Assembly: GCF_000004075.3 (NCBI RefSeq)
Contig: NC_026661.2
Coordinates: 20,922,307 to 20,986,306, forward strand
Length of the DNA: 64,000 bases
Reading direction: 5' to 3'
From: Cucumis sativus
Lineage: Eukaryota > Streptophyta > Magnoliopsida > Cucurbitales > Cucurbitaceae
Made by a program: the position numbers and the translations under genes. Positions 29,101 through 62,125 of this stretch are shown here, piece after piece (position 1 is the stretch's first letter; every line of letters begins with the position of its first letter). The notes beneath the pieces were generated by a model. The model was given only the letters and a program-made list of their open reading frames with translations, ran no database searches and had not been told where the DNA came from.

Positions 29101-29200
29101 ATTCACACTTTGAGTTATTTTTTCTTTTATAAAGTTTTTAGATTTGGATTAAAATGTGATTTGGTATCTTAAATAAGGTTTTATTTCATGTAACAAATGT
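26181..29200. other. AT-rich intergenic region
   Basis: About 3 kb with no open frame of note on either strand. Around 26590-26830 it contains a copy of a dispersed motif (ACAAAATATTTATATTTCAT, then a T-rich part) also seen near 24470, 38640 and 39170. The rest is low-complexity A/T sequence. Confidence 0.6.
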
Positions 29201-29284
29201 GTCAGGATGGCCGAGTGGTCTAAGGCGCCAGACTCAAGTTCTGGTTCTCGTGAGAGAGCGTGGGTTCGAATCCCACTTCTGACA
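29201..29284 (+). tRNA. tRNA-Leu, anticodon CAA
   Basis: An 84-base class II tRNA. The acceptor stem pairs GTCAGGA with TTCTGAC (one G-T pair) and has discriminator A. The D arm contains TGGCCGAGTGG, which is also the A box. The anticodon stem-loop CCAGACTCAAGTTCTGG shows anticodon CAA. A long variable arm (GTTCTCGTGAGAGAGC) follows, then the T arm GGTTCGAATCC (B box). There is no intron. A CAA motif lies just upstream (AACAAATGT) and T runs lie downstream, consistent with RNA polymerase III transcription. Confidence 0.97.
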
Positions 29285-30077
29285 ATATTTTGGGTTACAT
29301 TTTTAGATTCATGTTAAGAGTATAGATGTTAGATTAGAAAGTTTATAATTTGACTTAAAAACATTTCGAGACCTAAGTTTAAAATATTAGGTGGAAGACT
29401 CCAAATTTTAGGTTAAACAATACCCACGTATCTATAATTTTTCTTTCTAATTTATTTTTTAGATTCTTGGTTAAATAACACATTAGTAATACTTTTTCCT
29501 TTCCTTTTGTTCAAATCTAGTATTTCCTACTAGTTGTCGTACACATAGAGCCTCTTCTTAACAAAATTTTAGTACACTTCAAACCATGTCTTAAAATCGA
29601 GATTACAAAATGATATTTTAAAACTTAGAAACCAAATAAACACATTCTTCTTATAACCAAACACCACTTGTACTTAGTTATGATTAGTTTATCTAATGGG
29701 TATATTGGTTGAATTGTAGACATATTAACCTAAAATTGTAAACCAGAACCAAACTCTTTCATGGCAAGTAAGTATAGATTAGATGTTAGGTTTCCCGTAT
29801 AGTTAGTGCACATAAAAACAACATACAAGTTGGGTGAAAATGTAAGCCTCTGAATCAGCAGCAAACACATCATTCCAAAGTTTCATGTGCCAAATCGCCA
29901 AGTGTTGGCAACAAGAAAGGCCTTCCTCTCTTTTTAGATAACTCTCCCACCTTCCCTTCCTATTCATTCTTCCATATTAATTCCAATAATCAAACACTTT
30001 CTTTCTTTCTTTCTTCCTCCCCTTTTTAGCCATCATTTACAAACCGTCTTAAACAAAAAAAAGAAAAAAGAAAAAAA
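29285..30077. other. Intergenic region between tRNA-Leu and the small CSPTxHPGSF protein gene
   Basis: AT-rich DNA with no frame of note. The last 100 bases (about 29940-30077) are pyrimidine-rich (TTTC repeats near 29998-30014) and then A-rich, as expected for a promoter and 5' UTR of the gene that follows. Confidence 0.5.
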
Positions 30078-36988: not shown

Positions 36989-38702
36989 TGTGATCGCAAA
37001 GCAAAATTGACAGGAAACGGAATTTTAGGTGTTAAAATAAGAAAGAAAACCGAAGAATCAGGGAAATGGGGAAGAATCCAAAACCCCCAACAACAAAGGC
37101 AAACAAGAATTTCCCAAATTGAAATCGGTAAGAATGTACTAAGAATCTAAAATCAAGAAACCCATAAGCACAAGAAACTAAAAAAAAAAAAAAAAAACAA
37201 ACCAGACGCCAAGAAAGAACAACTCCGAATGAAGGACAGTTATAAGAAGAAATGAAAAGGATCTTCCTTCAAGACATAATAAAAATGAACGATGAATAAT
37301 CAATCAACCAAATGGAAGAACATAAATGTAACACAGAAACGACAGAGAAAGAGAAAAAGAGAAGCTTAACGACAAAAACAAAAAGTTCCCCAAAAAAAAA
37401 AGGAGTAAAAGAAAAAAGCCCAAATGACAAAACAGCAAAAGAAAAGAAGAAATGTCAATGAAAAAGAAGAAGAAATTGGCCAAAAAAGGTAATGGAAGAT
37501 CCCAGCTGTGAAGGAGGAAGACGAAGAAGAAGAAGGAAGGAGAAAAAAAAAGAAAGGGGGAGGTGCCACGTCGGACGAAGGCATTTCCAACTAAAATTAA
37601 AAACGCGCGGATCCATGAAAAGGGGTAGTGAAAAGACCATAAAACCCATCAATTTAATCTTGTAAATTATTAATTATTAATTATAGTTTCCTATTTTGTT
37701 GTGAAAATTCGTTGGTAAAAAGTAAATGAGCCAAGTCATTAGGAGAAGTAAATCCAAAGAGGTAATAAAAAAAGAAGACGAAGGGACGGAAATTTAGCGG
37801 GGAAGACAAAACGTGGAGCCGTCCGTTAATAGCTGGCATTCCTTAAAAGCCTTTCTTTCTACCTTTTCTCCACAATGACAGTTCTACCCTTCGTTACAAT
37901 TCCGGCCACAATCTCTTCATCTCTTTTTTCTAAAAAACAATCCAATTAAATAATGCCCTTTCCCATTAATATTATAATTCAATTTTTAATTATTTATATA
38001 TTAATTCCAAAACATATTACAAACAAACTATGAATTTAACCCACCCATTTACATTTTAATTATTTCTTTTTATCTATCCTTCCATTCCTCTCATTCGTTC
38101 ATATATCATACTCAAGATGTTACATATTATAAAAAGTGTGTGTGTTATGATTTAGTATAGAGGAAGAATTTATATGTTTAGTTTGTTGGATCCATGTTGT
38201 GTTTTTCTTTTCATTTAAAGTTGAATACGAAGGAGAATTATTTTATAGAATTTGATTAATAAATAGTAAGATTAGTGAGTGTATGATTAGAATATTGACT
38301 AATTTGATTAGGTCTATGTGTTGGTAAGAGATTATGAGTCATCATTAAAGTTCAAAGGGTCTTTTTTTTTTTAGAACATTTGACAACCTTGTTTGATAAG
38401 ATTTGAAGGGAAAATGATAAGCACATGTGAAAGTAGTTGACTTGATCAACAACATGTTGTGGTGTAGGGGAGTGGAATGAATAATAACAAATCAAAGGAA
38501 TGAAAAGAGTAGGAAAGGAAAAAAGAGGTTGTTTTGATGTCATTTATTGTATTATTTTGGTTCACTCTCAATTTTAGTTTTATTTTAAATCTCATAACTC
38601 AAATGTGTTGAAATTTAATATATGAAAAAGAAAATGATAAATTATTTACACTCTACGGAACAAAACTACTAAAAAAAAATTCATTACACTTGATTTTTCT
38701 AT

Positions 38703-38744
38703 GAAGTATAAATGGTTTGTGAAGTATAAATGGTTTGTGAAGTA
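38703..38744 (+). repeat. 18-base tandem repeat
   Basis: The unit GAAGTATAAATGGTTTGT occurs twice in full (38703-38720, 38721-38738) and continues for six bases of a third copy. It lies in AT-rich intergenic DNA and matches a degenerate motif dispersed elsewhere in the window. Confidence 0.85.
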
Positions 38745-41924: not shown

Positions 41925-44900
41925 TCAGGGCTGCACCTTGCAACCATCGTTGAGAGTGTCATAGAATTCAATGAATAAATTGCTTCTATGGGTCGTATGA
42001 GTTTCACTATCCACCTCTTCTATTTCCCGTTGGGAGGAACTTGGGCTTTGAGCAATAAAAAAAGCAGGTTGTTTGGGAGATGGAAGTTGAGCGGAATCAT
42101 TGTTGATCATGAAATAAATATCCAACATCGTCGGCCTATTCCCTGGGATTTGTTGAACACATAGAAGACTAACATGAATGCACCTTAGGGCCTTTGCTTT
42201 TTGATCATCAGAATTGCATAAACCCAAGTCAATCAGCTCTTCTCCTCTCCCATTCACCCACAATTCCCATGCCTGAAAAATACAAACATTATCATTTTTA
42301 ACTCACACACACATTCATAAACAAAAACAGACAACCCTTTCTAACTTACATATCCTATGAGGTTAAGTGGTCGTTCTGTGTCATAATTGTGGTAGTTCTT
42401 TTGACTTGTTATGATCTCCAACAATAGTATTCCAAAACTGTATACATCAGACTTTATTGAAAAAATACCCTCCATTGCATATTCTGGTGATATATACCCA
42501 CTGCAATATAACATAAGTAAGTTGATCATGAACTGCATATCAACATATCCATATTTAACTCTACATGAATTAATTACTTAAATGATTTTTTCTAATATAT
42601 ATGTATATATCAATGGAAGATACAAATATATAAAAGATTCACTTACTGTGTACCAACCACTCGACTTGTGTTTGCTTCGTTGTCAGATGGCTTAAAGACT
42701 CTAGCCATACCAAAGTCCGATATTTTTGCATTCATTTCATCATCCAGTAAAATGTTGCTAACTTTTAAATCTCGATGAATTATTCGTACTCTTGAGTAGC
42801 AGTGAAGGTAGAGTAGTCCTTGAACTATTCCTTGGACAACGTGCAAACGTTTTTCCCAATCAAATATTAACTTCTTCTCCGAATCTATATATAACCCCAA
42901 TCATATGGAAAAATAATAACAATGAGATTGATATGCAATAATGAGAAAAATAGACGAGAAAGAACTAAAAGAAAAAGTAAAATGACCGACCAAAGAGGAA
43001 AAAGTCGAGGCTTTTGTTGGGCATATACTCATAAACCAACAATTTCTCCTCTTTATGAAGGCAGCAACCAATGAGCCTAACCAAATTAGTGTGTTGAAGT
43101 TTAGCAATCAAAATAGTTTCATTCTTAAACTCAACCAATCCTTGTCCTGAATTCTTTGACAGTCTTTTAATGGCTACTTCTTGCCCATCTGTCAAAACTC
43201 CCTTATAAACAGGTCCGAAGCCACCTTGTCCCAGCTTACACTCTTCACCAAAATTATTCGTAGCAGAGAGTATGGTTTCGAAGTCAAAAAATTGCAATTC
43301 GGGGTTCTTTTTTCCATCTCTAATTTGTATGATCATTATTCTTAATATGTTGTAACCTTCGGATATCATCCCCATCCCCCGAAGAAAACCTTTCTTTACT
43401 TTTCCGATAGCTGTGGGTTAAGACAAAAACAATCATTATGTAATATATCCAACGGAATTAAATATAATGTGGGTTTTCTTTAATAATAAAAATATAAAGA
43501 AACAATATACCTTTGAATATTTGTGTTCTCCATTTGGTGTATATAATAAAACAGAGTAGGAGAAAAGTTGCAGGTATGGTTAGAGCCACAGTTATTTGAA
43601 CCCAAACCTTCCATTTTCCTGCATGACGATTAAGCTAATTAATTAGAAGTAAACCCAAGATTCAAAATTTTCATTTTGCATTAACATTACTACAGTTTTT
43701 TAGTTTATTTTTAATTAACTCGATGGTAACCCACCTGTAACTATTCTCTATATAACTGAAATAATAAGTGTAGTGATAAAAGTGTCCTTCGGCCCCCCTT
43801 TAAAACCAGATTCCTTCTAAATTAATTTTATTGAACTTTAAAGCTTTCCGTTAACATAACAAAATTTCCAGAAAGTATGTCTATCTTTGTTCTTTCGTAA
43901 TAAAATTTTTCTTCCTAATTCGAACTGGGTGTCTCTCTTTCGTTTGTCAATTTTTGCAACATAAAAATTGAACTAGGTTAGTTTTTGGGGGAAAAAAATA
44001 CTAATTTATTAGCATGTGTTTACTACTAAAAAACAACACTCGAATATCAATTTAATAATTAACGTAGCTATCTACTTTGTGAATGTTTAAGTCTATATGG
44101 GAAAAAAAAAAGAAGAAAAGAAAGAGAAAGAAAGAATCAAAGTGTAGGATTAGATATGGAATAATCTGATGCAAGTAACCTTACCATTTGGAGACTCGTC
44201 ATTTGTGTTTGAAAACTCGTGATCTGTGTCTAGAAACTCGCTATCTGTGTCCAGTGACCAAAGCATTTGTAAACTGTCGTTCTCTGGAATAAAGTTGGCA
44301 CCTGACTTCCAAAACTCACAGCCGGAGTCACTCTCGTACGCTGGAATCCCAAAAGCGATGCAATCGCAATCATTAATGCAAATACTGCGGCACTCAAACA
44401 TGGTTAAGTTTCCACTTAGTTTGTAGTAATAATCAGAACCATTAATCCTCTCCAACTCGTAACCATTAATCTGCGAAATGTACGGACCATAGCCATGAGA
44501 CAACTTATTCCTGCACTCCGGTATTTTGTCCAGCTCTCTCCACACACAAGCACCACGGATCTCATTCGAAGTCAAGAGGCAGGGAGAGTCATATATTTCA
44601 TTGTTGATTCTAACATTCCCATTATTTTCTAATCTGATTTGGGATAAAATAAGTTCCCCTGACTCTCCGTGATAATATGAATTTCTATACAGAGAATATC
44701 CATTGGGTTCCCGGGCGTAGTAAATGAAATACGTTTCGTTCTCATTCGAAACTCGAACGAAATTGAATCCTTTATCTTTTTCCAAGAATTCGAACGAACC
44801 CTCTTTCCAATTCCCAGTCCTCCAAAGCAGTTCTCCTCGGACACAAACCACTAACTCATATGTATTGTTCGGATTCATTCCCAGACTCAAACCTCCCGGC

Positions 44901-45472
44901 TTCGGAGATTTATAGTTTCGCCATGATATTAATGACCAAGTGGAGTTAGTTTTGTGATTGATCCCAATTTTCATTCCGGGAAGCAGAGTATCTGTTGGAT
45001 GATCAAAACTCTGCCACACAATCTGCTTTACTGACCCATCTCTGTTCAGCTCTCGTAGTACAAAGTTGCCGTTGTCTTGTAATATGGCGCTGCTGGTGGT
45101 CGGTTGTCCGCCATTGAAAAGTGAAAAGGAACAATTCCCACTTTGGATTTTCAAGCTGCCGTTGACGTCAATTGTGAGGCTGATCGAAGCAGAATTGTTG
45201 GGAAATGGGGAGTTTCGATTGGCTATCCAGATTGGTTTCTGGTCATTTGTGTTGTCGGAAATTCCCAAATAAATGGAATTAGAACTTGGAGGAATGTAAA
45301 ATGCTAGAATAAAAGTGGCGGTGGATGAAATTAATTGAGAACCAATTGATAGGTGTTGGCCTTGAGCAAGAACATCATTTGCTAGTGTGGTGTGGCCATG
45401 GGAAAACTTGGCCATGAAAAGCGCTACAAAGAAACAGCAGAATAGAATTAAGAGTTGAGGAAATAGAAACAT
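41925..45472 (-). CDS. G-type lectin S-receptor-like Ser/Thr kinase, CES101 type (gene A)
   Basis: Six exons (44185-45472, 43511-43618, 42991-43410, 42647-42884, 42350-42500, 41925-42272) join in frame to 850 residues. It has a signal peptide at about 1-27 ([20 protein letters not shown]) and a B-type lectin domain at about 30-150, then [16 protein letters not shown]. An S-locus glycoprotein region with many N-glycosylation sites follows, then a PAN/apple domain with [20 protein letters not shown]. The membrane span is at about 434-456 (exon 2). The kinase has [12 protein letters not shown] (525-536), K547, HRDLK (642-646) and DFG (662-664), so it is an RD kinase with all key residues. Such receptors sit in the plasma membrane and are tied to defence and stress signalling; the ligand is unknown. 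The last 20 or so residues differ from gene C through small indels, so the C-tail is atypical. A W-box lies about 160 bases upstream. Confidence 0.9.
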
Positions 45473-46650
45473 GGTTGTTTAGGTAAAAGCATATAATGAT
45501 AGATTATTTCAATTATGTCCTAACACCACTTCCGTTTTTGATCTTATGAACTCAAATAATATGAACATAAGGGGGTCTCCATTTGTGTTACTTGGAAATA
45601 TTAGATCATGAAAGGAACTTTTGGCTCGCCTTGACCCACCATCATTGAAAAATTCAAAGCACTTCCAATATAAAATAGACTGAATTAGAAGTAGGGTGAA
45701 TATCCTACTGAACATTCAACTCCGAAAATAATATCTAAGGTGTCTCTGTAGGTCTCTCTGCATTTTAAAAACTATTAAATTACAACAAAAGATACAAAAG
45801 ATAATGGTCAATTTGGTATAGTTTTTCTTTCAATGATTAAATGCAGAGAACACCCTTAAAAACTCCCAAAGTCAGTCAATGCCTACATACTTCCTTTTGA
45901 TTATATTAAAATGTCTGTTTCTCCATTAAAATACATAAACCATCTAATTGACTCATAGTCAATCCACAAGAAACGAATCAAGTCTCTCTTATTTTTTCTT
46001 CTTTCTTTCTTTATTTCTCCATTAAATACAAACCATCTAACTAGTGGGTTGGGATATTTACATTATATGTACATAAATAAATGCAAAATCAACAAAGTTA
46101 TATTTCAAATTCTCACTTATGACCACATAAAAAATATATTATCTTTTCATGATATCTTCTTAATTAATGAATTTACTGAAACATTTAAAGAAATTTTCTA
46201 AATTTTTAGATAATATAGGACTTTTCCACACACACAATACTTCCATGAAAAGTAGAAACTAAACCTTTCAAACTAATTAATGAGATCACGAGTTATCAAG
46301 GAATGAAATATATCCATGTCTTCTTGTTGAATATAGTAAAATAAAGAAAAACAATCTCAAACTAATTGCAATACAATAACAGTATAATATAATACTCCTA
46401 CAACTTATGATGACAGACATAAAATAATGGCAATATATTTTAAGTTGATTTGAGAACACATGAGGGCTTCATCTAGCAACCATCACTGAGACTGTCATTG
46501 CATTCGTTGAGTAAATGTCCAGTGTTGGTCCTACAGGTCGTATGAGCTCATTATTCACATCTTCGATTTCAGGTTCCGAGGAGTTTGGATTTTGAGCAAC
46601 AAAAAAAGCTGGTTGTTTGGGAGATGGGAGTTGAGCATAATCGTTGCTGA
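45473..46650. other. Spacer between receptor-kinase genes A and B
   Basis: 45473-45720 is the gene A upstream block, which is also conserved before genes B and C. Then about 700 AT-rich bases without a gene. 46469-46650 still aligns with the C-terminal coding tail of genes A and C (IDVYFMISND-like, [10 protein letters not shown]) but lies beyond the gene B stop, so it is former coding sequence. Confidence 0.6.
45631..45636 (+). promoter_or_regulatory. W-box upstream of gene A
   Basis: TTGACC, a core WRKY-binding W-box, lies inside a block (CTTGACCCACCATCATTG) conserved upstream of genes A and B. It is about 160 bases before the gene A start codon. In gene C the same place reads ATGACC, so the box is lost. 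The regulatory role is inferred. Confidence 0.4.
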
Positions 46651-49600
46651 TCATGAAATAAATATCCAACATCGTCGGCATAAAAGACTGACATGGATAC
46701 ATCTTAAAGCTTTTGGTTTCTGATCAGAGTTGCACAAACCTGAATCAATGAGCTCTTCTCCTCTCCCATTCACCCATAATTCCCATGCCTGAAAATACAA
46801 TAACCATATAGATATTGTTTAAAATCATTATAACTTAACTTCACAGACAAAAACAACGACCTTTCTACACTTACATATCCTATGAGATTGAGTGGTCGTT
46901 CTGTGTCATAATTATTGTAGTTTTTTCGACTTGTTACGATCTCCAATAACAGTATTCCAAAGCTGTACACGTCTGACTTTATTGAGAAAATGCCCTCCAT
47001 TGCATATTCCGGTGATATATAGCCACTACAGCATAGAATATTATTGTACATTTAACTTAGTTTTCTAATATAAACATCATCCCTGTGTTACTAAGAATTT
47101 ATACCATATATATATATATATATGTATATATATAAAAGATTGATCACTTACTATGTACCAACCACCCGACCTGTATTTGCTTCATGCTCTGATGGTTTGA
47201 ACACTCTAGCCATACCAAAATCTGATATTTTTGCATTCATCTCATCATCAAGTAAGATATTGCTAACTTTTAAATCTCGATGAATTATTCGAACTCTTGA
47301 GTAGTGGTGAAGATAAAGTAATCCTTGAACTATCCCTTGAATAACATGTAAGCGTTTTTTCCAATCTAATATTAACTTCTTCTCCAAGTCTGCAAATACT
47401 CCCCAACCACAGAAAAAGAAAAACATATACTATAAATGGATACATAGTAGAGAATAGTTGATAATCAAAGAGATCAAGACACTGTATAATTAAACAAACG
47501 TAAAAAAAGACTAATTTACCAAAGAGGAAGAAATCAAGGCTTTTGTTGGGCATATACTCATAAACCAACAATTTCTCATCTTTATGAAGGCAGCAACCAA
47601 TGAGCCTAACCAAATTAGTGTGTTGAAGTTTAGCAATCAAAATAGTTTCATTCTTAAACTCAACCAATCCTTGTCCTGAATTCTTTGACAGTCTTTTAAT
47701 GGCTACTTCTTGCCCATCTGTCATAACTCCCTGCAGTACAATATAATTAATCAATAATTGTTACAACCCAAAGTATATATATATACATATATATTATTAA
47801 AAGATTAAATCCCATATAATAATATATATAAGCTAGAGTTAATTAACTTAATTTATAATATGTATTACCTTATAAACAGGTCCAAAACCACCTTTTCCAA
47901 GCTTACATTCATCTCCAAAATTATTCGTAGCAGAAACTATGGTTTCAAAGTCAAAAAACTGCAATTCAGGATTCTTTTTCCAGTCTGTTATCTGTCTGAT
48001 CATTATTCCTAATATCTTACAATCTTCGGTTATGACCCACATCCTACGTAGAAAACATTTCTTGAATTTTCCTATAACTGTGGGATTTAGACACAAATAC
48101 AATAATATATTGTCAAATTATTCATAGTAATTATAATATATATCCAATGAAAATTTAAAATAAAATGACTGAAATAGATTTACCTTCGACTATTTGTGTT
48201 CTCCAATTTGCGTATATTATAAAACATAGTAGAAGAAAAATTGTAGAAACGGCTAGACCGATAGTCACTTGCACCCAAACCTCCATTTTTCCTAAGCAAA
48301 TTCAAAATCTTAAGTTAGCTAGATAGATATAGCAGCAGTTTCTACTGACTATAATATATATTAAGAAAGTTTGTTTCTTTTTTCTTTCTCGAAGATTATT
48401 GATTGATCTTCATTCTTATAATGATTGTAATTATTTTTTCAAATATGGTTTTGATATTTTTCATAAGAAAGGAAAACCCCCAAAACCAAAGCATGAATAT
48501 ATTTTTTCTTAGTACATAAGAAATAGCAAAATAATAATAATAGTTAAGCCACAAAAGTAATAGCAAACATACCATAGTGTTGTTGATATATACATAAATT
48601 AAAAGGTTCATACATTGATATTAAATATCACAAACATATTTGGTATATCTTTTATAAATACTCATAAATAAATAAAATGCCATTTCTATTTAATCTAATA
48701 TGGCTAGAAATGCTAATATTTTCTACTACATTTTCGAATTCACTATCTAAGTGTTTAAAATTAGATGTAAAAAGAAAAATGTTTATAAAGATTTATAAAG
48801 TTGTTCCATATGCGTCCAAAGGAAAAATATTTTGTCACCTCTTTTGCTACTGTAAATGCTATTTAAAATTTGAATTAGATACGTGTGTTTACTATTTACT
48901 TCTAAACCAATTAAGTCGTCTACACATGAAGAAACTTGAGACATTTTAAAAAATAGCAAAATAAACTAAAATATTTACGAACTATAGTAAAAATTTTAAT
49001 TTTTTATATCAATGATAGAAATTGATAAAATTCTATCAATGTCATTGATAGAAACACATCGGTGTCTATTATTGATATAATCTAAAATTTTTTGCTATAT
49101 CTGGTAAATATTTTGTCAAATTTGTTTTTTTTTTTTTTTACAATTTCCCATAATACCTCACTCTTTCGTTCAAATACTTTCTTAATTATTAATCTTAGAC
49201 TAAGTTTTTGAAAATTTTTTACTCGTAAATATGCATCAATGTTGATAAGAAATCTATTAATTAATTTATGAGTAAAAATGAAATTTTAGTATGGAAATTG
49301 TAATGAAATTAGGTGTTAAATCAGAAGTTTGATGTAAACTAACTTAATTACCGTTTCTATAGTTACATGGATAGGGGTGTGGACTTGGCGCCGGAGGGTC
49401 CGACGACTCTTCTCCGTTTAGAAACCAACCCTCTCTTTCACCTTCATCCATCACAATAATCTTGGCTCCTGACTTCCATATCTCACACCCGCCGTTCCCA
49501 TCTTCTTGTTTGCTAACACCGAAACCGATGCAATCACAATCATAAATGCAAATTATTTCGCATTCAAATCTCGTTAAGTTTGTGTCCTTGTAAGAAGAAG

Positions 49601-50615
49601 AAGAAGAAACATTAATGGTATCTTCCAATGTGTGAACAAACATCGTCTTAAAGGCCACTCCATTAGGGTACAACCAATTCCTACACCGAGGCATTTTGTG
49701 CTGCTTTTTCCACACGCACCCTTCGTTATCTTTTTCCAACAATGGGCAAATAGAGTGCTCAAAATCTTCATTATTCATATTCATCCTCAAATTCCCATCT
49801 TCTTTCAATCTCAATTGGGTTTGTATCACACTTGTTGATTCTGCCCTGTAGTTGTTGTTGAAAGAGAAGTAAATCAAATACGTTTCGTTCTCATTCGAAA
49901 CTCTATTGAAATTGATTCCTTTATTGTTTTCCAGGAATTCGAACGAACCGTCTTTCCAATTCCCACTCCTCCAAAACAAATCATCTCGGATGAACATCAC
50001 TAACTCGAACGTATTGTTTGGATTCATTCCCAGTCTGAAAGCTCCAGGCTTCGGAGATTCCTCGTTTCTCCATGATGTTAATGACCAAGTGGAGTTAGTT
50101 CTGTAATTGATCCCAATTTTCATTCCGGGAAGCAGAGTATCTGTTGGATGATCAAAGCTTTGCCACAAAATTCCCTTTACTGATCCATCTCTGTTCAGCT
50201 CTCGCAATATGAAATTGCCGTCGTCTTGTAAAACTGCGCTGCTGCTGGTGGTTGATTGTCCGACATCAAAGAGTGAAAAGAAAAAACTCCCATTTTGTAT
50301 TATCAAGCTGCCGTTGGCGTCGACGACGAGGCCCATCGAAGCAGAATTGTTGGCAAATATTGGAGAGTTTGGATTGGCAATCCAGATTGGCTTCTGGTGA
50401 TTAGAGTTATAGGAAATTCCCAAATAAGTGGCATTATTCAAAGAGTCGGGATTGTAAAATCCTAAGACAAAGATGCCAGTGGGTGAGATTAACTGAGACC
50501 CAAACCTCAGTTCTTGGCCTTGAGTAAGTACATTATAGGCCATTGTAGACTGAACCTGGGAACTCTCCGCCATTACAACCGCTACAAAGCAACACCAGAA
50601 TGCAACAAAGTTCAT
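46651..50615 (-). CDS. G-type lectin S-receptor-like Ser/Thr kinase with truncated kinase C-lobe (gene B)
   Basis: Seven exons (49352-50615, 48184-48291, 47869-48077, 47520-47730, 47152-47389, 46875-47025, 46651-46788) give 772 residues. The start at 50615 gives a signal peptide, [19 protein letters not shown]; an upstream in-frame ATG at 50720 would add 35 charged residues and hide it. B-lectin, [16 protein letters not shown], an S-locus region, PAN ([18 protein letters not shown]) and a membrane span follow. The kinase keeps [20 protein letters not shown] and DFG. In the last exon 25 bases present in A and C are missing, which shifts the frame and replaces the conserved [12 protein letters not shown] part of subdomain XI with a short novel tail and stop. 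Unlike A and C, it has an intron at VYK/G (47731-47868). It may be a defective or decoy receptor; activity is doubtful. Confidence 0.75.
48955..49150. repeat. Dispersed AT-rich repeat with short inverted motifs
   Basis: Contains ATCAATGATAGAAATTGATA, TTCTATCAATGTCATTGATA and GTGTCTATTATTGATA in close succession, then TTTTGCTATATCTGGTAAAT. A related but diverged copy lies at about 51310-51560 (CTATTATTAATAGACATTAG) and a short piece near 41745-41775. The ends are not clear; it may be a non-autonomous DNA transposon relic common in this genome. Confidence 0.45.
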
Positions 50616-50762
50616 GGCTTTGTTAAGCGTATTATGATACATTTCAAAGATGTCCCATAACCACTTCCGTTTTTCGTTTTTATGGACTCGAATAATATCA
50701 ACAAATTGAGTGATATCCATATCAGTAAATTGGAAATATCATGAAGAAACTTTTGGGCCGCC

Positions 50763-50768
50763 TTGACC
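50763..50768 (+). promoter_or_regulatory. W-box upstream of gene B
   Basis: TTGACC in the upstream block shared with gene A, about 150 bases before the preferred gene B start codon. Same reasoning and same uncertainty as for gene A. Confidence 0.35.
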
Positions 50769-51000
50769 CACCATCATTGGAAAATTCATAGGCTTCCAAT
50801 AGGAAAAAGACTGAATTAGGATAGGACTCCAAACAAAGTCCTTCATCTCCACCAAATTTTTAGTTCATTTCTAAACACACACAAAAAAAAAACTCCTTTT
50901 TATTTAAGGTTACTTTAATAATTTATGGATTTTCATTTGCCTTGCATGCAGGGCAAACTGAATGTTAATAATGACGGTTGTGCCCTACACATTTTACACA

Positions 51001-51072
51001 AATGACAAAAACGAAGTTCATCTCACGAAATTTTACATGTACAAATGACAAAAACGAAGTTCATCCCACGAA
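51001..51072 (+). repeat. Two-copy tandem repeat of about 43 bases
   Basis: AATGACAAAAACGAAGTTCA occurs at 51001 and 51044, each followed by TCyCACGAA and preceded by ATTTTACA. One C/T difference separates the shared parts. Recent local duplication. Confidence 0.8.
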
Positions 51073-52682
51073 TAATAGATGCGTATACTGTCATAAGTTC
51101 TATAATTAATGATATGCATTTGATCCAGTATTAAGATTCATTTAATAGGCTTAACTGATTTACTTGTTAGATTCGATCCTTTATACTACTAATTATACAC
51201 TTGTGTGATGTGGAATTAATACACTATTAAGATACTTCAAAATTGTTTGTTATGTAATGATATGACTTTTGATATGTTTTTTTTTTTATATAAACTTGAA
51301 AGTTATTTGGTATTTAATAGGGATAGTTGCAAACATATATAGCAATTAGAATCAACGTATTAGTATATATAGTAATATTTTTTTAAAAAATAGAAATAAA
51401 ACAAAATCTGTCAATGTCTATTAAAATATAAATCTATGACTGATAGATCAAGTTACAAATATTGATCTATTATTAATAGACATTAGATTTTATTAGCGAT
51501 TATAAGTTTATCGGTAATATAAGTCTATATATATATATATATACAAATTTAAAAAATGGAATAGAAAAGTATTCCTTGCAACAATTGTCTCTTCCATTTT
51601 GTCTCTTTCTAATGTTGTGCCATGAATTGGAAAAGAATAATATTAAAGTTTGATTAGATGTTTATGCGAATGAGACTTATATAAGAAAATAACAACTCCA
51701 ACACTTCTTTTTCTTTTTATGATGTTAACAAGTGATAAAAAAAATTGAATATATGTCAACATGAGCTTAGCTCAACTTGTATGTATGAACTTATGGACAT
51801 GAGGTCTTGGGTTTATATCCCCACCCGTGAATATATATTTGTGTGGATAACTGTTTTAATTTTAGGTATTCGTTGTGCCATATTTAAAAACAATGGTTAA
51901 AATATATACAAATTAAGAGTCTTGGAAGAAAGCCGAACGCAAAGCATCTAACGTTATGTTCCAAGACTCCAACTTTAAGAACATTATTGTGTGCTCCGCT
52001 TTCTTCCAAGATTCTTTAAGAATATGCTTTCTTCTTAGACTCCGTACATCAAGCATGCACATTCAAAATAGAATCAAAGTAATAGAGATCAAACCACATC
52101 ATATTCAAATCAATATAAATACAATACCAATCAATTCAACGAATAATTTTTTTTTTAGAAATCTCGTGCGATCAATTTCATAAAGATATTTATGAATTAC
52201 TCTTAACTAGCTAGCAACATGGTATCATCCCAGGTAGCATTTGTTCATGGAAAGTTAGAGTATATAATTGAGGAATATTTTAACGTGGAGTGACCGGGGT
52301 AAAATATAACACGTCTGTTTGAACATATGTTATAGAATTTTTCTATATTAAGGACAGATCTTTTGTTCAACTCTCTCAATCAGTCCGTCCCTTTCTTGAA
52401 TTAATTTTCTAGTAACGGCTCGTGGCTCAATCAAGACCACCATTGTTGATTGAAGTCATTGTGTTTTTTTCGTTTTTTGCTTTTACTTTTCCCAAATACC
52501 AACTTCTAAGTATTCTTGCAAAATAAAAAACTCAACTGATAAAAATCAAAAGACAAACAAAAGCGAATTAGTTTTGGTAAAATGGCGATTGGGAATGGAA
52601 TTACAACTCTTACTGCTATTATTGCTTTATAATCCTGTTTCTTTTGTCCAGTTTTCCCTCAGTTGGTGTCACTATTATGGAA

Positions 52683-53090
52683 GATCATAACAAGTCGGAA
52701 AAACTACCACAATTATGACACATAACGATGGCTCGATCTTATTGATTTGGGTTTGTGCAATAACAGTGATGTAAGTGCGAAGAAGGCTCTAAGGTGCATT
52801 CATGTTAGTCTTTTGTGTGTGCAACAAAATTCCGGTGGATAGGCCAACAATGTTGGAGGTTTATTTCATGATTAATAATAATGATTCAACTCAACTTCCC
52901 ATCTTTCAAACAGCCTGCTTTTTTTTGTAGCTCAAAACCCTAATTCATCTGAAATAGAAGTATAAAAAAAGGTGGTGGAGGAGTGTACTACTGGGCTCAT
53001 AAACCAACTTCACAACCAAAACAACAAATTTGTTCGTTGAGTACAATGTCCGTTTCAGTGACGGTTGCTAGCAGGTGAGGCCACTGTGCT
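52683..53090 (+). pseudogene. Inverted relic of a receptor-kinase C-terminal part
   Basis: On the + strand, opposite to the array, pieces match the last two kinase exons of genes [15 protein letters not shown] near 52684, [11 protein letters not shown] near 52737, [15 protein letters not shown] near 52786, and the VAQNPNSSE-like tail near 52930. The join between the first two pieces skips part of the exon 5/6 region. Stops and frame changes interrupt it. It sits between the gene B flank and gene C, so at least one rearrangement involved an inversion. Confidence 0.8.
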
Positions 53091-53544
53091 CATTGTTTAG
53101 GAAAAGGCATGACTAGTGACACATTTGCACTACATTATTATATTTTCATTTAGCACAATAATGATGGCCAAGAGATTCAAATCATAGACTTTTTAATCGT
53201 TAACATATATTGTTGTTTATTATTATTATTATCGTCATGGGTATGCTAAACAAAAATATTATTACTACACATTTTCTACTAGTTTTCCTAAAATAGTGTG
53301 TTTATCATAACATAAATAGACAAAAATGATAGTCTAGTTCATCATTGACAAGATTGTGATGTTTTATTTTTTTTAAAAAAAAAAATAGTTCTATTTGAAA
53401 TTACCCTTTTATTTAATTTTAAAATTTACTCATTTGTCCAACTACTTGCAATACAATAATGGTAAAACACTACTACAGAACTATTATGACAGACATAAAG
53501 TGAGAATATTAAGTTGATTTGAGACACAATGATCGATCAGGGCT

Positions 53545-56500
53545 TCACCTAGCAACCATCGTTGAGAGTGTCATAGAATTCAATGAATAAATTTCCGGCG
53601 TCGTTGGTTCTATGGGTCGTATGAGTTCACTATCCACCTCTTCCATTTCCCGTTCGAAGGAACTTGGGTTTTGAGCAATAAAAAAAGCAGGTTGTTTGGG
53701 AGATGGAAGTTGAGCGGAATCATTGTTGATCATGAAATAAATATCCAACATCGTCGGCCTATTCCCTGGGATTTGTTGAACACATAGAAGACTAACATGA
53801 ATGCACCTTAGGGCCTTTGCTTTTTGATCATCAGAATTGCATAAACCCAAGTCAATCAGCTCTTCTCCTCTCCCATTCACCCACAATTCCCATGCCTGAA
53901 AAATACAAACATTATCATTTTTAATTCACACACACATTCATAAACAAAAACAGACAACCCTTTCTAGCTTACATATCCTATGAGGTTAAGTGGTCGTTCT
54001 GTGTCATAATTGTGGTAGTTCTTTTGACTTGTTATGATCTCCAACAATAGTATTCCAAAACTGTATACATCAGACTTTATTGAAAAAATACCCTCCATTG
54101 CATATTCTGGTGATATATACCCACTGCAACATAAAGTATGTTTATTAAGTGCAAATTAAGCATCTATATTTAGCTCTACGTGAATTGATTACTTAAAGGA
54201 TTCTTTTCTAATGCAGATATATATCAATGAAAATATAGCTAGATATATATAACATCCACTTACTATGTACCAACCACCCGACTTGTGTTTGCTTCGTTGT
54301 CCGATGGCTTAAAGACTCTAGCCATACCAAAATCCGATATTTTTGCATTCATTTCATCATCGAGTAAAATGTTGCTAACTTTTAAATCTCGATGAATTAT
54401 TCGTACTCTTGAGTAGTAGTGAAGGTAGAGTAGTCCTTGAACTATTCCTTGGACAACGTGCAAACGTTTTTCCCAATCAAATATTAACTTCTTCTCCGAA
54501 TCTATATATAACTCCAATCATATGAAAAAATAATAACAATGAGATTGATATGCAATATACTGAAAAATAGACGAGAAAGAACTAAAAGAAAAGTAAAATG
54601 ACGGACCAAAGAGGAAAAAGTCAAGGCTTTTGTTGGGCATATACTCATAAACCAACAATTTCTCATCTTTATGAAGGCAGCAACCAATGAGCCTAACCAA
54701 ATTAGTGTGCTGAAGTTTAGCAATCAAAATAGTTTCATTCTTAAACTCAACCAATCCTTGTCCTGAATTCTTTGACAGTCTTTTAATGGCTACTTCTTGC
54801 CCATCTGTCAAAACTCCCTTATAAACAGGTCCGAAGCCACCTTGTCCCAGCTTACACTCTTCTCCAAAATTATTCGTAGCAGAGAGTATAGTTTCGAAGT
54901 CAAAAAATTGTTTTCGGGGTTCTTTTTTCCATCTCTAATTTGTATGATCATTATTCTTAATATGTTGTAACATTCGGATATCATCCCCATCCCCCGAAGA
55001 AAACCTTTCTTTACTTTTCCGATAGCTGTGGGTTAAGACAAAAACAATCATTATGTAATATATCCAACAGAATTAAATATAATGTGGGTTTTCTTTAATA
55101 ATAAAAATATAAAGAAACAATATACCTTTGAATATTTGTGTTCTCCATTTGGTGTATATAATAAAACAGAGTAGGAGAAAAGTTGCAGGTAGGGTTAGAG
55201 CCACAGTTATTTGCACCCAAACCTTCCATTTTCCTGCATGACGATTAAGCTAATTAATTAGAAGTAAACCCAAGATTCAAAATTTTCATTTTGCATTAAT
55301 ATTACTATAGTTTTTTAGTTTACTTTTAATTGTGGTAACCCACCTGTAGTTTCTATGCTCTTTATTTATTTATATATAACTTAAATAGTACTGAAAATAT
55401 CAGCCAAAGGTAAAACTGTGAGCTACTCCCCTTTAAACCCAATTCTTTCCACATTATTATTATTTTTATTGAACTATAAAGATTTCCTTTAACAAAATTA
55501 CTGAATCCGAGTAATGTTTTTGTCAATACTAGAGCATTAGGATTTGAATCTCCGGCTTTAGGAAGGAGTAAAATGTTGAAGTAGAAGCAACACTCTAAAA
55601 GATATTTGAAGCATCTACCTAAAAAGTTTTTGTTGTTCTCTCTAGGTTTATCTAGAATTCTGTTGAAGTATAATTGATTTTATTTAGGTTAAAGAAACTC
55701 TTGCATTTCTTTAGATAAAGAATAAACTACAGATATCTAAATTAAAGTAGTTGGAATTCTAAAGAGACTTTTATCCCACACACCTGTAAATAGGGGTTGT
55801 ATCCTCATTTGTGAACCAAACAAAACAAACAAGAAAAGCAAAGAGAGGAAGAAAGAAAGCAAGAAAGTTAAGACTATAATAATCTTTAGGAAGTGTCTAT
55901 CTTTGTTCTTTCATAATAAAAGTTTTGTTTCTCCTTTGTTTGTGTCAATTTCTTCGACATAAAAATTGAACTAGGTTTGTTTTGGAAAAAAAAAAAAAAC
56001 TAATTTATTAGCATGCGTTTACTACTAAACAACACTTGACTATCAATTTAATAATTCACGTAGCTATCTACTCTGTGAATGTTTAAATTCATAAAAAGAG
56101 AAAGAAGGAATCAAGTCTCTAGGATTTGATATGAAATAATTTGATGCAATGAACTTTACCATTTCGAGACTTGTAATTTGTGTTCATTAACGACCAAATC
56201 GTTTGTGAACTGTCGTAGTCTGGAATAAACTTGGGAACTGACTTCCAAAACTCACAGCCGGAGTCACTCCCGTACGCTGGAATCGCAAAAGCGATGCAGT
56301 CACAATCATTCATGCAAATACTATGGCATTCAAGCGTGGTTAAGTTCCCACTTTGTTCGTAGTAATAATTAGAACCATTAATCCTCTCACCCTTGTAACC
56401 ATTAATAACCGAAAAGCCCGGACCATAGCCATAAGACAACTCATTCCTGCACTCCGGTAGTTGTTCCTGCTTTCTCCTCACACAACTACTATCCATTTCA

Positions 56501-57417
56501 TTTCGAGAGTTGAGGCAAACGAGTGGAAAATATTGTTGATTGTTGAATATCAAAACCCCATCATTTTCTAATGTCCATTGGGGTAGTATAAATTCCCTTG
56601 ACCCTTCGTAATCATATGAATTTTCATAGACAGAATATCGATGGAGTCCCGGGATGTAGTAAATGAAATACGTTTCGTTCTCATTCGAAACTCGATTGAA
56701 ATTGATTCCTTTGCTTATATAGCTTGCCAAGAATTCGAACGAACCGTCTTTCCAATTCCCACTCCTCCAAAGCAGATCATCTTGAATAAACATCACTAAC
56801 TCGTACGTATTGTTTGGATTCATTCCCAGTCTGAAAGCTCCTGGCTTCGGAGATTCATCGCTTCTCCATGATGTTAATGACCAAGTGGAGTTTGTTTTGT
56901 GATTGATCCCGATTTTCATTCTGGGAAGAAGTGTATCTGTTGGATGATCAAAGCTCTGCCACACAATCTGCTTTACTGACCCATCTCTGTTCATCTCTCG
57001 TAGTACAAAGTTGCCGTCGTCTTGTAAAATGGCGCTGCTGGTGGTTGGTTGTCCGCCATTGAAAAGTGAAAAGAAATAATTCCCACTTTGGATTTTCAAG
57101 CTGCCGTTGACGTCGATTGTGAGGCTGATGGAAGCAGAATTGTTGGGAAATGGGGAGTTTCGATTGGCTATCCAGATTGGTTTCTGGTCATTTGTGTTGT
57201 AGGAAATTCCCAAGTAAGTGGAATTAGAACTTGGAGGATTGTAAAATCCTAGCACAAAAGTGGCGGTGGATGAAATTAATTGAGAACCAATTGATAGGTG
57301 TTGGCCTTGAGTAAGAACGTTATTGGTTAGAGTGGTCTGGGCATGGGAAAACTCCGCCATGACAAGCGCTACTAAGAAACAACAGAATAGAATTAAGAGT
57401 TGAGGAAATAGAAACAT
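53545..57417 (-). pseudogene. G-type lectin S-receptor-like kinase with frameshifted kinase (gene C)
   Basis: The exon layout matches gene A: 56160-57417, 55126-55233, 54607-55025, 54264-54501, 53973-54123, 53545-53895. The ectodomain is complete: signal peptide, B-lectin, [19 protein letters not shown] with [18 protein letters not shown], then a membrane span. Exon 3 is 419 bases long against 420 in gene A: near 54911 the sequence reads TTGTTTTCGG instead of TTGCAATTCGG. The frame shifts after KNPE and stops at 54808, giving 527 residues with membrane span but no kinase. All later kinase exons are otherwise open and keep HRDLK, DFG and GNRPTM, ending MTLSTMVAR. This is either a very young pseudogene, a kinase-less receptor, or an assembly error of one base. 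Confidence 0.75.
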
Positions 57418-58681
57418 GGCTGTTTAGGTAAAGCATATAATGATAGATTTCAATTATGTCCTAACACTACTTCAGTTTTTGTTCTTATGAACTCAAATAA
57501 TATGAACATAAGATGTCTTCATTTGTGTGACTTTGAAATATCAGATCATTAAAGGAACTCTTGGCTCGCCATGACCCATCACCATTGCAAAGATTCAAAA
57601 CACTTCCAATAAAAAATGTATTCCTAAAATTGATAACTATTATAATAATTATAAATATACATACGACTAAAGAAACAGAAAAGAAAAGTCTTCCTTGCAA
57701 CAGTAGTTCTCTTCCCTCTTCCATTTTGGCTCTTATAAATGTTTTAGTAGCCATGAATCAAAAAAGAATAATATTAAAGTTTGATTCCATATTTCTGACA
57801 ATGAAACCTATATAACAAAATAACAATTCCGAGCCTTCTTTTTCTTTCTATGATGTTATCAACTGATAAAAAATTGAATATATATTTTTTGTGGAAAACT
57901 GTTTTAATCTTACGTCCCAGCTCAAGCCTAAATCCTTTACAAAATGCACCATGTTGGTGCATTGAATATCAGAAAGTTTTGATGATGAACACCATTGCTC
58001 TGTAAGAGTTTCATAAACATATTTAGGAATTACTCTTGACTGGAAGTGTGACATGTAGCAATGATATTATCCTAAGCTAGCATTTGTTCATGAAAAGTTT
58101 GAAGTAATTTAAGGAATATTTTAACGTGGAATTACCGAGTAAAAAGTAATACGTTTGTTTGAACATGTATTATAGAATTTTTAATTAATCGTCCTCATCT
58201 AAATGATGGAAGCACATAAATATCGTTGTTCAACTTGTTCAACCAGTCCAACCCTTTCTTGAATTTTCTAATAACGGTTCGAGGCTCAATCAAGACTGTC
58301 ATTGTTGATTTGAAGTGAAGTCATTGTGTTTTTATTTTCTGCTTTTGCTGCTGATCCTCGGATACCAACTTCAAAGTATTTTTACAAGACAAGAAACTCA
58401 ATTGATGAAAACCAAAAGATTTATTTTTCTATTTAGAAAAGTGACATATTTTTTTAAGAAAAATTATCAAATATTTTAATAAATTTTCTCCCATTTTGAA
58501 ATGGTTAAAATAACTTCTATCATATTTTAAATTACTGAAGGATTATAAATCACGTTGATAGCACGTGCACCGTGGTGTATAAGTAGGCGCCGTGATGAGG
58601 GATTTGCGAGCCGTGAATTGCCGCGCACGAGCGATCACCGATTCCTCTTTCTGCTCTTCGACTTGCGCCATTTTCTCAGCC
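57418..58681. other. Upstream flank of gene C and promoter area of the TMA7-like relic
   Basis: 57500-57620 holds the receptor-kinase upstream block. 57700-58400 matches the gene B flank at 51590-52520, including TATTTTAACGTGGA, CCCTTTCTTGAATT and GGCTCAATCAAGAC. From 58555 the sequence turns GC-richer with TATAAGTAGGCGCCG near 58577, which looks like the promoter and leader of the TMA7-like gene that follows. Confidence 0.6.
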
Positions 58682-61600
58682 ATTTCTTCCAAGCTAGGCT
58701 CCTTATTTTATGGGAAATTATAGCTTTCTATTTCTATTTCCATTTCACCATCCATGTCTACGCTATGATATGTAATTCCCTTCCTTTTTCTTTTTACCGA
58801 TTTAAGTCATGATATGGAGAATCGAATTTTTTCTATATTTTTTTAGGAGGGAAAGCCAAGCCTTTGAAGCAACCCAAGGTTAAGAAGAAAGGTTACGACG
58901 AGGTATGCTTTGATTTTTTTTTTTTTTTATGGGTCTTCTTTATTTTTTAATGCAACTTTTGGGATCGAAGAATTTCAATCTGCCTTACTTTTGTTGCTTA
59001 GTTCTGTGTTTTTGGTTAGAAATCAGGATACCTTATTGTTTGTTCTTAAACGCTAGGTGGAATTTTCCATGTAACGAGCGAATCGACGAGTCAAATGCCT
59101 CTCTTTTTTTGTTTTGGCTTAGTTTGACTTGTAGAATGCCTCCCCACCTTGTATTGTGCCAAAAGAGAACTTTTTCATGTTCGTTTCTTTCCTCCGTCAA
59201 ATATGTATTCTTTGTTTCATATCCTCCGTTTGGATCGTCCCATTTCTATTTATGTTCATCTCGGAACCAGAGCACTAAAACTCACTCAGTCCGACCAGCT
59301 CTTGGGTCCACTTTGAAGCAGTCGCCGATGTCTTACTATGCTTCTCTCCTACAATCTTGTGTAGTTCGAAAGGCGATAGAGCCTGGAAAGCAGCTTCACG
59401 CTCGTATATGTCAAGTGGGTATTAGTTTCAACCCTCTTTTGGCTACTAAATTAGTCAATCTTTACTGCATTTGCAACTCTTTGACAAATGCTCATCTCTT
59501 GTTTGATAGAATTTCCAAACGAAATCTGTTCCTTTGGAATGTTATGATTCGAGGTTATGCTTGGAATGGACCATATGAGCTTGCAATTTCACTTTACTAC
59601 CAAATGCGAGATTATGGGCTTGTGCCTGATAAATTCACCTTCCCCTTTGTGCTTAAAGCTTGCTCGGCTCTTTCTGCAATGGAAGAGGGAAAGAAGATAC
59701 ATAAAGATGTTATACGCTCTGGGTTGGAAAGTGATGTGTTTGTTGGTGCGGCCTTGATTGATATGTATGCTAAATGCGGTTGTGTAGAGAGTGCTCGACA
59801 GGTGTTTGATAAAATTGATGAGAGAGATGTTGTGTGTTGGAACTCCATGCTTGCAACTTATTCTCAAAATGGGCAACCTGATGAGTCACTTGCTTTATGT
59901 AGGGTGATGGCTTTTAATGGATTGAAGCCCACTGAGGGGACATTTGTCATCTCCATCGCAGCTTCGGCTGACAATGGCCTTTTACCTCAAGGGAAGGAGC
60001 TTCATGGTTATAGTTGGCGACATGGATTTGAGTCAAATGACAAGGTGAAAACTGCATTGATGGATATGTATGCCAAGAGTGGCTCAGTAAATGTGGCTAG
60101 GAGTTTGTTTGAGTTATTGGAGGAGAAGAGGGTAGTTTCGTGGAACGCCATGATAACTGGGTATGCAATGCATGGTCACGCTAATGAAGCTTTGGACTTG
60201 TTTAAGGAGATGAAAGGAAAAGTTTTACCTGATCATATAACTTTTGTTGGAGTTCTCGCTGCCTGCAGCCATGGAGGGTTGCTTAATGAAGGGAAGATGC
60301 ATTTCAGATCAATGATAAGTGATTTTAATATATGGCCTACTGTTCAACACTACACTTGTATGATTGATCTACTTGGTCATTGTGGTCGCTTGGAAGAAGC
60401 TTACAAACTCATTATGGAAATGAGAGTAGAGCCAGATGCTGGTGTCTGGGGTGCGTTGCTTCATTCGTGCAAAATCCATGGCAATGTGGAGATGGGTGAG
60501 CTAGCATTAGAGAAGTTGGTTGAGCTTGAACCTGATGATGGTGGGAACTATGTGATTCTATCGAATATGTATGCTCAAGCTGGTAAATGGGATGGAGTTG
60601 CAAGACTAAGGGATCTCATGATGAATAAGGGGTTGAAGAAAAGTATTGCTTGTAGTTGGATAGAAGTGGGAAACAAAGTTCATGCCTTCTTGTCGGAAGA
60701 TACTTCTCACCCCAAGTCTGAAGCAATCTATGCCGAGTTAAAACGGACAGGGAAGTTGATGAAAGAAGCTGGCTATGCACCGCAAGTTGGGTCAGTTTTC
60801 CACGATGTTGAAGATGATGAAAAGGTTGATATGGTGTCCTGTCATAGTGAAAGATTAGCCATTGCTTTTGGACTCATCAGCACATCTGCGGGAACTAAGC
60901 TCTTAATTATTAAGAATCTTCGAATTTGTGAGGATTGTCATGTTGCAATAAAATTCATATCAAAGATCACTGAGAGGGAAATTACTATTAGGGATGTTAA
61001 TCGTTATCATCACTTCAAAGATGGAGTTTGCTCTTGTGGTGATTTCTGGTGAATGGTTGGAATTTTTTTTTAATACTCCAACTTGGGAGATGAACGTGAG
61101 AAGTAGACGTAATCTTATTATACTGTGGATGAGAATTGAAGAATTCTGGGTAAAACATTTAAAGGTAAAATCATGATGGAAGCAAGGATTTGCTTGCTAC
61201 CAATAACCTCGAATCCTTGGAAGCATGAAACTGTGAAGTAAAAGCAATAACCTTCGCCAATAAAAAGACCTTACTCCTGAACAAAGGAAGGATTGAGGCT
61301 GGGCAAGCTGCCTTTTTCATCTTCCATTTCCAAATTTAAAAGGAAAAAAAAAAAAAAAAATCAAGGCACCAGTGCATTAAAATGCTCGTAGGTCGTTCGA
61401 GTCTTGACTAATAGTCTTGAAAGGACTTCTTCAGCTTACACTTACTCTTCTACATCCAAACTGGCAAATTAAGTCTAATTGTAAAGGATTTTATGCTTCA
61501 AAAGTTTCAAATGTTGAGTCCCACTTTGAGGTTCTTATCAAAATTTCTTTAGGAGAAAAGACGTTTATTTTTAAGTAATGCACACCTAATTTGTGGATTT

Positions 61601-62125
61601 GACGTAGCTTTTGACATTTTGCCCATTCCATTCACGGTGGGGATGGGAAGTTCAAATAAAATTATTAATGGATGCCCTCACGTGAAAGCCTACTCTATTC
61701 GTTAGTCATTTTAGTTAATGGTTGCTTTGATGCAACTATCTGCACCTTAATTCGTCGTGGAGAATTCTCTTTTGTAGTCAGCTAAGTTGCTTGGCAAGAT
61801 AGTGGTTGAAAGGCCCGTATTATGCTCAGAACTACGGTTTGAAATTTACCGGATTTTCTCGACAGGTGAATCTGGCCAATATTCAAAAGAGGGAAGAGGA
61901 AAAGGTGAGAACTTAAACTTTAAAGCTTAACTTGTCTCATAGCTTTTCTTCTGGTCCATCAGTTGGGTCGGATCGAAGATTGCTATGAACCATAGTATTG
62001 AGTTTGATGTTATGCAGGCGTTCAGGGAGCTTAGAGCAAAGGCCCAACTGAAGAGAACCTTTGGAAAAGTGGGTAGAAATGAGAGTTCCCTACACAATAT
62101 ACGTAGATTACTTGTGCTGAAATGA
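58682..62125 (+). pseudogene. TMA7-like (translation machinery-associated protein 7) gene, decayed
   Basis: Four exon pieces align in order with TMA7, a short basic protein linked to ribosomes. Piece 1 (58682-58697) reads ATTTCTTCCAAGCTAG where the family has ATG TCT TCC AAG CAA G, so the start codon is ATT and the donor is GC. Exon 2 (58847-58902) encodes GKAKPLKQPKVKKKGYDE. Exon 3 (61866-61904) encodes VNLANIQKREEEK. Exon 4 (62018-62125) encodes AFRELRAKAQLKRTFGKVG, then diverges and stops after 17 further residues, lacking the usual GLKKSGKK end. Exons 2-4 are phase-compatible with good splice sites. The lost start and altered tail suggest a pseudogene, unless another first exon is used. 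Its second intron holds a complete PPR gene. Confidence 0.7.
59136..61052 (+). CDS. DYW-class pentatricopeptide repeat protein (organelle RNA editing type), nested in a TMA7-like intron
   Basis: An intronless gene. The frame is open from 58929, but the likely start is 59136 (MPPHLVLCQKRTFSCSFLSS), giving 638 residues with an Arg/Ser/Phe-rich targeting-like N-terminus for plastid or mitochondrion. From about residue 70 on there are PLS-type PPR repeats, e.g. NPLLATKLVNLYCICNSL, NLFLWNVMIRGYAWNG, DVFVGAALIDMYAKCG and RVVSWNAMITGYAMHG. E and E+ domains follow (WGALLHSCKIHGNVEMGE, YVILSNMYAQAGKWD). The DYW domain has the deaminase-like HSERLAIAFGL (HxE) and CEDCH (CxxC) zinc residues and ends CSCGDFW, that is DFW rather than DYW. 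Such proteins bind one or a few organelle transcripts and edit C to U; the target is unknown. It lies wholly inside intron 2 of the TMA7-like gene, same strand. Confidence 0.92.
   Translation: MPPHLVLCQKRTFSCSFLSSVKYVFFVSYPPFGSSHFYLCSSRNQSTKTHSVRPALGSTLKQSPMSYYASLLQSCVVRKAIEPGKQLHARICQVGISFNPLLATKLVNLYCICNSLTNAHLLFDRISKRNLFLWNVMIRGYAWNGPYELAISLYYQMRDYGLVPDKFTFPFVLKACSALSAMEEGKKIHKDVIRSGLESDVFVGAALIDMYAKCGCVESARQVFDKIDERDVVCWNSMLATYSQNGQPDESLALCRVMAFNGLKPTEGTFVISIAASADNGLLPQGKELHGYSWRHGFESNDKVKTALMDMYAKSGSVNVARSLFELLEEKRVVSWNAMITGYAMHGHANEALDLFKEMKGKVLPDHITFVGVLAACSHGGLLNEGKMHFRSMISDFNIWPTVQHYTCMIDLLGHCGRLEEAYKLIMEMRVEPDAGVWGALLHSCKIHGNVEMGELALEKLVELEPDDGGNYVILSNMYAQAGKWDGVARLRDLMMNKGLKKSIACSWIEVGNKVHAFLSEDTSHPKSEAIYAELKRTGKLMKEAGYAPQVGSVFHDVEDDEKVDMVSCHSERLAIAFGLISTSAGTKLLIIKNLRICEDCHVAIKFISKITEREITIRDVNRYHHFKDGVCSCGDFW

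Follow-up and report, generated by a model that had tools for sequence, protein, structure and literature searches.

Nested genes and intronless PPR genes

Protein-coding genes that lie inside other genes are already known, and the locus described here adds another example. Where both genes are read from the same strand, the arrangement raises the question of how the inner gene avoids being removed by splicing. In human cells, tandem nested genes that disturb the splicing of their hosts have been described (PMC3192792). Human KTI12 is nested in intron 2 of TXNDC12, and its expression forces the use of a cryptic acceptor and premature termination on TXNDC12 (PMC3192792, PMC5408686). Nested retrocopies that use the promoters and first exons of their hosts have been reviewed as well, mouse Taf9 with two first exons taken from Ak6 being one example (PMC5408686). 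Absence of introns is common among the PPR genes of watermelon, where it applies to 303 of 422 (PMC7650700).

The window analysed here is a stretch of 64,000 nucleotides of the cucumber (Cucumis sativus) genome, C7:20922307-20986306, and the genome searched comprises 226.6 Mb in 88 contigs. An intact DYW-type PPR gene is confirmed to lie in the window, nested on the same strand in intron 2 of a TMA7 gene. Like KTI12 in TXNDC12, it is a protein-coding gene placed in tandem in an early intron of its host; unlike TXNDC12, which works, the TMA7 host is decayed, and the cucumber case is known from sequence. The use of a host promoter and two first exons as a leader, reported for Taf9 and Ak6, is proposed for the cucumber gene too, for which both leader use and retroposition are candidate readings. 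The gene shares the lack of introns with the watermelon genes, but differs in that it lies inside an intron of another gene and ends in DFW in place of DYW. Among the open-licence matches listed, no paper was recognisable by its title or the start of its abstract as describing a PPR gene nested in an intron. Since the occupied intron and its empty counterpart, like the decayed host and the intact one, occur in a single genome, promoter capture and the order of events become testable.

The nested arrangement

An earlier note on this DNA had proposed that TMA7-like exons surround an intron at 58903-61865, and this is borne out: the intron borders are GT and AG as it stated, and four TMA7 exons at window positions 58682-62082 were assigned by alignment to an intact paralog on contig C3. 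C3 intron 3 is longer than that of the window, and exon 4 was placed by the alignment of exons to C3. The features of the nest, all on the forward strand and in window coordinates, are as follows.

58682-58697, + strand: TMA7 exon 1, 16 bases, aligned to C3:8609724-8609709; start codon ATG now ATT, donor GT now GC
58847-58902, + strand: TMA7 exon 2, 56 bases followed by a GT donor; 49 of 56 bases identical to C3:8609539-8609484
58903-61865, + strand: TMA7 intron 2, 2963 bp, GT...AG (C3 counterpart 567 bp)
58987-61479, + strand: segment without C3 counterpart, about 2493 bp, with an uncertainty of perhaps 20 bp at its ends; carries the PPR gene
59136-61052, + strand: intronless PPR-E-E+-DYW gene, 638 aa from its likely start, identified by Pfam domains and motifs
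61866-61904, + strand: TMA7 exon 3, 39 bases, one codon fewer than in C3
62018-62082, + strand: TMA7 exon 4, 65 bases to the former stop position; 16-bp deletion, the shifted frame ending at a stop at 62125

The complete PPR gene lies wholly inside the TMA7 intron. That the intron holds a whole, intronless gene on the strand of its host, also claimed in the earlier note, is evident from a stop-free frame with Pfam matches to PPR, E and DYW. The flanking pieces are not unrelated to each other, since both match one C3 TMA7 locus in the same order and on the same strand.

The intact paralog and the empty site

The intact TMA7 paralog (C3:8609724-8608442, minus strand) has four exons of 16, 56, 42 and 81 bases separated by GT-AG introns, encodes 64 aa and scores 84.4 bits against the Pfam TMA7 profile (cut-off 27). 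A DNA search of the genome with the intron flanks found, besides the window, one place, C3:8608475-8609595 on the minus strand, with the matches in the same order (E values of 8.6e-33 for the 5' part and of 9.1e-12, 2.0e-7 and 0.028 for the 3' parts). Within intron 2 the homology between the two copies ends at window position 58986 (C3 intron position 108) and restarts at 61480 (C3 intron position 124); the local alignments score 59 on the left and 64 on the right, where 200 single-base shuffles for each side gave no more than 33 and 32. Between the two stretches lie 16 bp of the C3 intron that have no partner in the window and, by eye, no evident likeness to the ends of the insert. C3 intron 2 is an empty site in the same genome. 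Two copies by themselves do not distinguish a gain in C7 from a loss in C3; the gain is the simpler of the two.

A segmental or whole-genome duplication was considered as the source of the TMA7 pair and rejected, as no synteny supports it within 100 kb on the C3 side, the C7 side of the comparison being the window and 2.6 kb beyond it. When 648 window frames (stop to stop, at least 40 codons) were compared with C3 8508001-8708000, the two protein-level matches were both TMA7 exons. At the DNA level six matches were found, three of them in TMA7 and three short ones (window 38639-38713, 48950-49123 and 49065-49131) whose counterparts on C3 lack collinearity with TMA7. The gene families next to the watermelon TMA7 gene Cla97C02G035950, as listed in its source (PMC9627507), were absent among the 8 C3 ORFs scanned with Pfam, out of at least 35.

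Decay of the host

The window copy of TMA7 carries three lesions, namely the change of ATG to ATT, the change of the intron 1 donor from GT to GC, and a frameshifting 16-bp deletion in exon 4, so that start codon, splice donor and reading frame are all hit and the decay suspected in the earlier note is supported. The joined translation still reaches 45.9 bits against Pfam TMA7 (PF09072, cut-off 27); the copy combines TMA7 homology with disabling lesions as a pseudogene does, yet a frame of 101 aa from an ATG at 58595 is open. A weak match of the same translation to LYRM_2 (16.1 bits, cut-off 27) was taken as chance. Over 52 aligned codons, which are those up to the exon 4 deletion minus the missing exon 3 codon, the window and C3 copies differ by 14 nonsynonymous and 8 synonymous substitutions (dN 0.12, dS 0.31), with a ratio of 0.39 that is rough, resting on about 31 synonymous sites. 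A copy free of constraint, compared with a conserved one, would on general reasoning be expected to give a ratio near 0.5, so that the observed value fits relaxed constraint on the window copy over much of its life. A search of the genome with the Pfam TMA7 profile gave three candidates, of which the one match was the C3 copy, and missed the window exons because they are too short or too decayed; with the C3 protein as query, exon 2 of the window was found at an E value of 0.00275.

A third TMA7-like stretch (C2:4051040-4051180) covers residues 6-52 without an intron, is 45% identical and contains an internal TAG and an internal TAA; from its sequence it looks like a processed pseudogene.

The nested PPR-DYW gene

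The stop-free frame of the inner gene runs from 58929 to 61052 (707 codons), and the 207 in-frame bases at 58929-59135 are as free of stops as the rest. The likely start is nevertheless the ATG at 59136, since 58929-58986 (58 bases) is TMA7 intron, which makes 58929 no natural start for a PPR gene, and since no match among the 128 listed for paralogs (the gene itself excluded) starts ahead of residue 65 in the 707-aa frame. The stretches 58929-59135 and 59136-59325 were not told apart by their codon usage. By eye, the N-terminus read from 59136 resembles an organelle targeting peptide.

After the PPR array come E and E+ motifs and a DYW deaminase domain of full length. Matches above the Pfam cut-offs were obtained for PF01535, PF13041, PF20431 and PF14432, and E+ (PF20430) scored 19.7 bits, under its cut-off of 24. 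HxE and CxxCH define the deaminase, and both are present, as HSE at residue 639 and CEDCH at residue 667 of the 707-aa frame, with CSCGDFW at 701, so that the protein terminates in DFW in place of DYW. The best match among solved structures is 9kfx, a synthetic PPR-DYW protein (874.8 bits), and the natural DYW domain 7o4e scores 148.5 bits. On these domains and motifs, the gene most likely encodes an organelle C-to-U editing factor.

Searching the genome for its relatives gave at least 129 matches, a lower bound since 63 of 659 candidates were scored; a single gene often accounts for several of them. Leaving the gene itself aside, the top-scoring PPR gene among the matches listed shares 42% identity across residues 81-707, and other PPR genes reach 51% in shorter stretches at the C-terminal end. 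The best-scoring relatives in this list are presumably CRR2-like; the nested gene resembles such proteins in being of the DYW type and differs from them in that 42% identity marks it as a separate lineage with no recent parent. Judged by that identity among the matches listed, the gene represents an old lineage that has no near parent in the cucumber genome. Among viral contigs, four stretches matched the search pattern and none encodes a relative.

The two best-scoring paralogs, at 21.69 and 21.79 Mb of C1 (C1:21693262-21695145 and C1:21792968-21794863), are the ones we take to be CRR2-like; they share a strand, are separated by about 100 kb and have almost the same N-terminal parts as far as these were read, so that they are perhaps recent duplicates or an assembly duplicate.

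Order of events

The reading that we regard as probable is that a PPR segment entered the intron of a redundant TMA7 gene, after which the host decayed while the PPR gene stayed intact and probably came to be read from a promoter derived from the host. In this sequence of events an intronless DYW-type PPR gene, carried on a segment of about 2.5 kb, would have been inserted in same-strand orientation into intron 2 of one TMA7 gene of a pair; the arrangement itself is observed, and the direction of the event we infer. Because the intact C3 copy remained, the host would then have been free to decay, and the start codon, the donor of intron 1 and the frame of the C-terminus are indeed lost from it. 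The PPR gene would have stayed whole, with an editing function predicted from its domains. Its transcription would start in the host-derived promoter region, with the ATG-free former exons 1 and 2 as a spliced 5' leader, and its transcript would end at its own poly(A) signal, ahead of TMA7 exon 3. With the best other PPR gene in the matches listed only 42% identical, there is no surviving donor copy to prove the insertion. The earlier note overstated how closely an editing factor is tied to a ribosome-associated gene, given that the host looks dead and that an intact TMA7 gene is kept elsewhere in the genome; the nest demonstrates no functional tie between TMA7 and RNA editing.

Promoter and leader

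The PPR gene came with little upstream sequence, about 149 bp of insert before its ATG, which raises the question of promoter capture. The elements that bear on it are the following.

58578-58585, + strand: TATA-like box TATAAGTA, 104 bp upstream of the former TMA7 start, putative and assigned by its position
59121-59122, + strand: acceptor-like AG, 15 of the 18 preceding bases pyrimidine; candidate from sequence
59133-59134, + strand: acceptor-like AG, 11 of the 18 preceding bases pyrimidine; candidate from sequence

The C3 paralog has TATAAA 115 bp upstream of its ATG, and a second TATAA stands at 58544 in the window. The likeness between the upstream regions of the two TMA7 copies is weak and at the edge of chance, with a score of 36 against a best of 33 in 200 shuffles. 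No TATAA occurs in 58903-59135. Exon 1, read from 58605, is free of ATG, as is exon 2. Between the intron 2 donor and the PPR ATG there are nine AGs, of which five were modelled as acceptors: with 59121-59122 or 59133-59134 the PPR start becomes the first ATG of the spliced transcript, and with the other three, farther upstream, a one-codon upstream ORF at 59069 comes first. Retention of intron 1, with its GC donor, would put ATGs at 58710, 58754 and further positions ahead of the PPR ATG; retention of the first part of intron 2 would do the same with ATGs at 58905, 58929, 58950, 59069 and 59095. The GC donor may indeed spoil the joining of exon 1 to exon 2.

It is plausible from this layout that the PPR gene has taken over the promoter of its host, as the earlier note suggested. 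The fuller proposal, in which the loss of the host start codon made the TMA7 promoter and exons 1-2 into the spliced 5' leader of the PPR gene, with an acceptor directly before 59136, is tentative and, taken as a whole, rather doubtful; if it were true, a promoter of the translation machinery would drive an organelle editing factor.

The alternative that fares best differs in this last step only: the PPR gene may have its own promoter within the insert, the dead TMA7 gene being a fossil without part in its expression, and we place this not far short of an even chance. The weak likeness of the host promoter to that of C3 (36 against 33 in shuffles) and the GC at the intron 1 donor speak for it; a missing TATA box would count little, as many plant core promoters have none. 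It has to make do, however, with just some 149 bp of insert before the PPR ATG and with an interval of 58903-59135 that lacks TATAA.

Route of the insert

Insertion into the TMA7 intron, followed by decay of the host, could have proceeded by more than one route, and past the PPR stop two elements are relevant to it.

61259-61264, + strand: AATAAA, candidate poly(A) signal downstream of the PPR stop, with another at 61655
61344-61360, + strand: run of 17 A, starting 291 bases past the PPR stop and 79 bp after the AATAAA

The insert may be a retrocopy, derived from a PPR mRNA by reverse transcription, in which 61344-61360 would be the poly(A) tail; this proposal concerns the route alone, is compatible with the preferred order of events and has in our estimate a fairly low probability. 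The gene is intronless, the A run lies at a suitable place past the AATAAA, an intronless TMA7-like stretch with two stops is also present in the cucumber genome, and one study has proposed that PPR genes poor in introns may derive from retrotransposition (PMC7650700). The watermelon count of the same study weakens the first point, as PPR genes are mostly intronless anyway. The A run, moreover, stops 119 bp short of the right junction and is weak as a sign of retroposition because runs of at least 14 A or T are common, ten of them occurring in the window. The search for a target-site duplication gave a best score of 6 for a flanking direct repeat, which is not above chance (mean 6.85 and maximum 9 in 100 shuffles). 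No second copy of the insert ends (58980-59340 and 61053-61490) was found in the genome search, nor was a near parent of the PPR gene, which might have borne introns, present in the genome among the matches listed. An insertion at the DNA level fits equally well.

A nest that predates the TMA7 duplication, with later loss of the PPR segment from the C3 copy, is unlikely. The direction of the event is not readable from two copies, and neither a near PPR donor (the best-scoring other gene, among the matches listed, being that at 42%) nor another copy of the insert flanks was found, as this history would have it; but it requires a near-exact removal that left a 567-bp intron collinear on both sides, and, by eye, the unpaired 16 bp of C3 are not evidently like the insert ends.

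A working host, in which translation would begin at the in-frame ATG 58595, intron 1 would be spliced as a GC-AG intron and a TMA7-like protein of 101 aa would end at 62125, with the PPR gene spliced out as part of intron 2, is very improbable: the joined frame is open throughout, GT or AG is kept at five of six splice borders and the Pfam TMA7 score is still above its cut-off, but the frameshift destroys the C-terminus, 14 amino-acid-changing substitutions fall within 52 codons, an intact TMA7 gene exists on C3, and that ATG lies only 17 bp past the TATA at 58578, probably before the start of transcription unless the TATAA at 58544 is used.

Neighbouring genes

Upstream of the nest, at window positions 42965-57417 on the minus strand, lies a cluster of ORFs with B-lectin and PAN domains and a kinase piece, which we take to resemble G-type lectin receptor kinases; the Pfam scan covered 9 of the 14 ORFs listed for this part of the analysis.

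44150-45472, - strand: ORF of the B-lectin/PAN cluster
49344-50720, - strand: ORF of the B-lectin/PAN cluster
56119-57417, - strand: ORF of the B-lectin/PAN cluster
42965-43375, - strand: kinase piece of the B-lectin/PAN cluster

The ORFs at 44150 and 56119 have near-identical beginnings. Farther from the nest, the window contains an ORF of the HSP70 family on the minus strand (6296-7525) and a tRNA-Leu (caa) gene (29200-29285). Downstream, past the end of the window (about 65280-66388 in its numbering), two ORFs with a mitochondrial carrier domain were present among those scanned.
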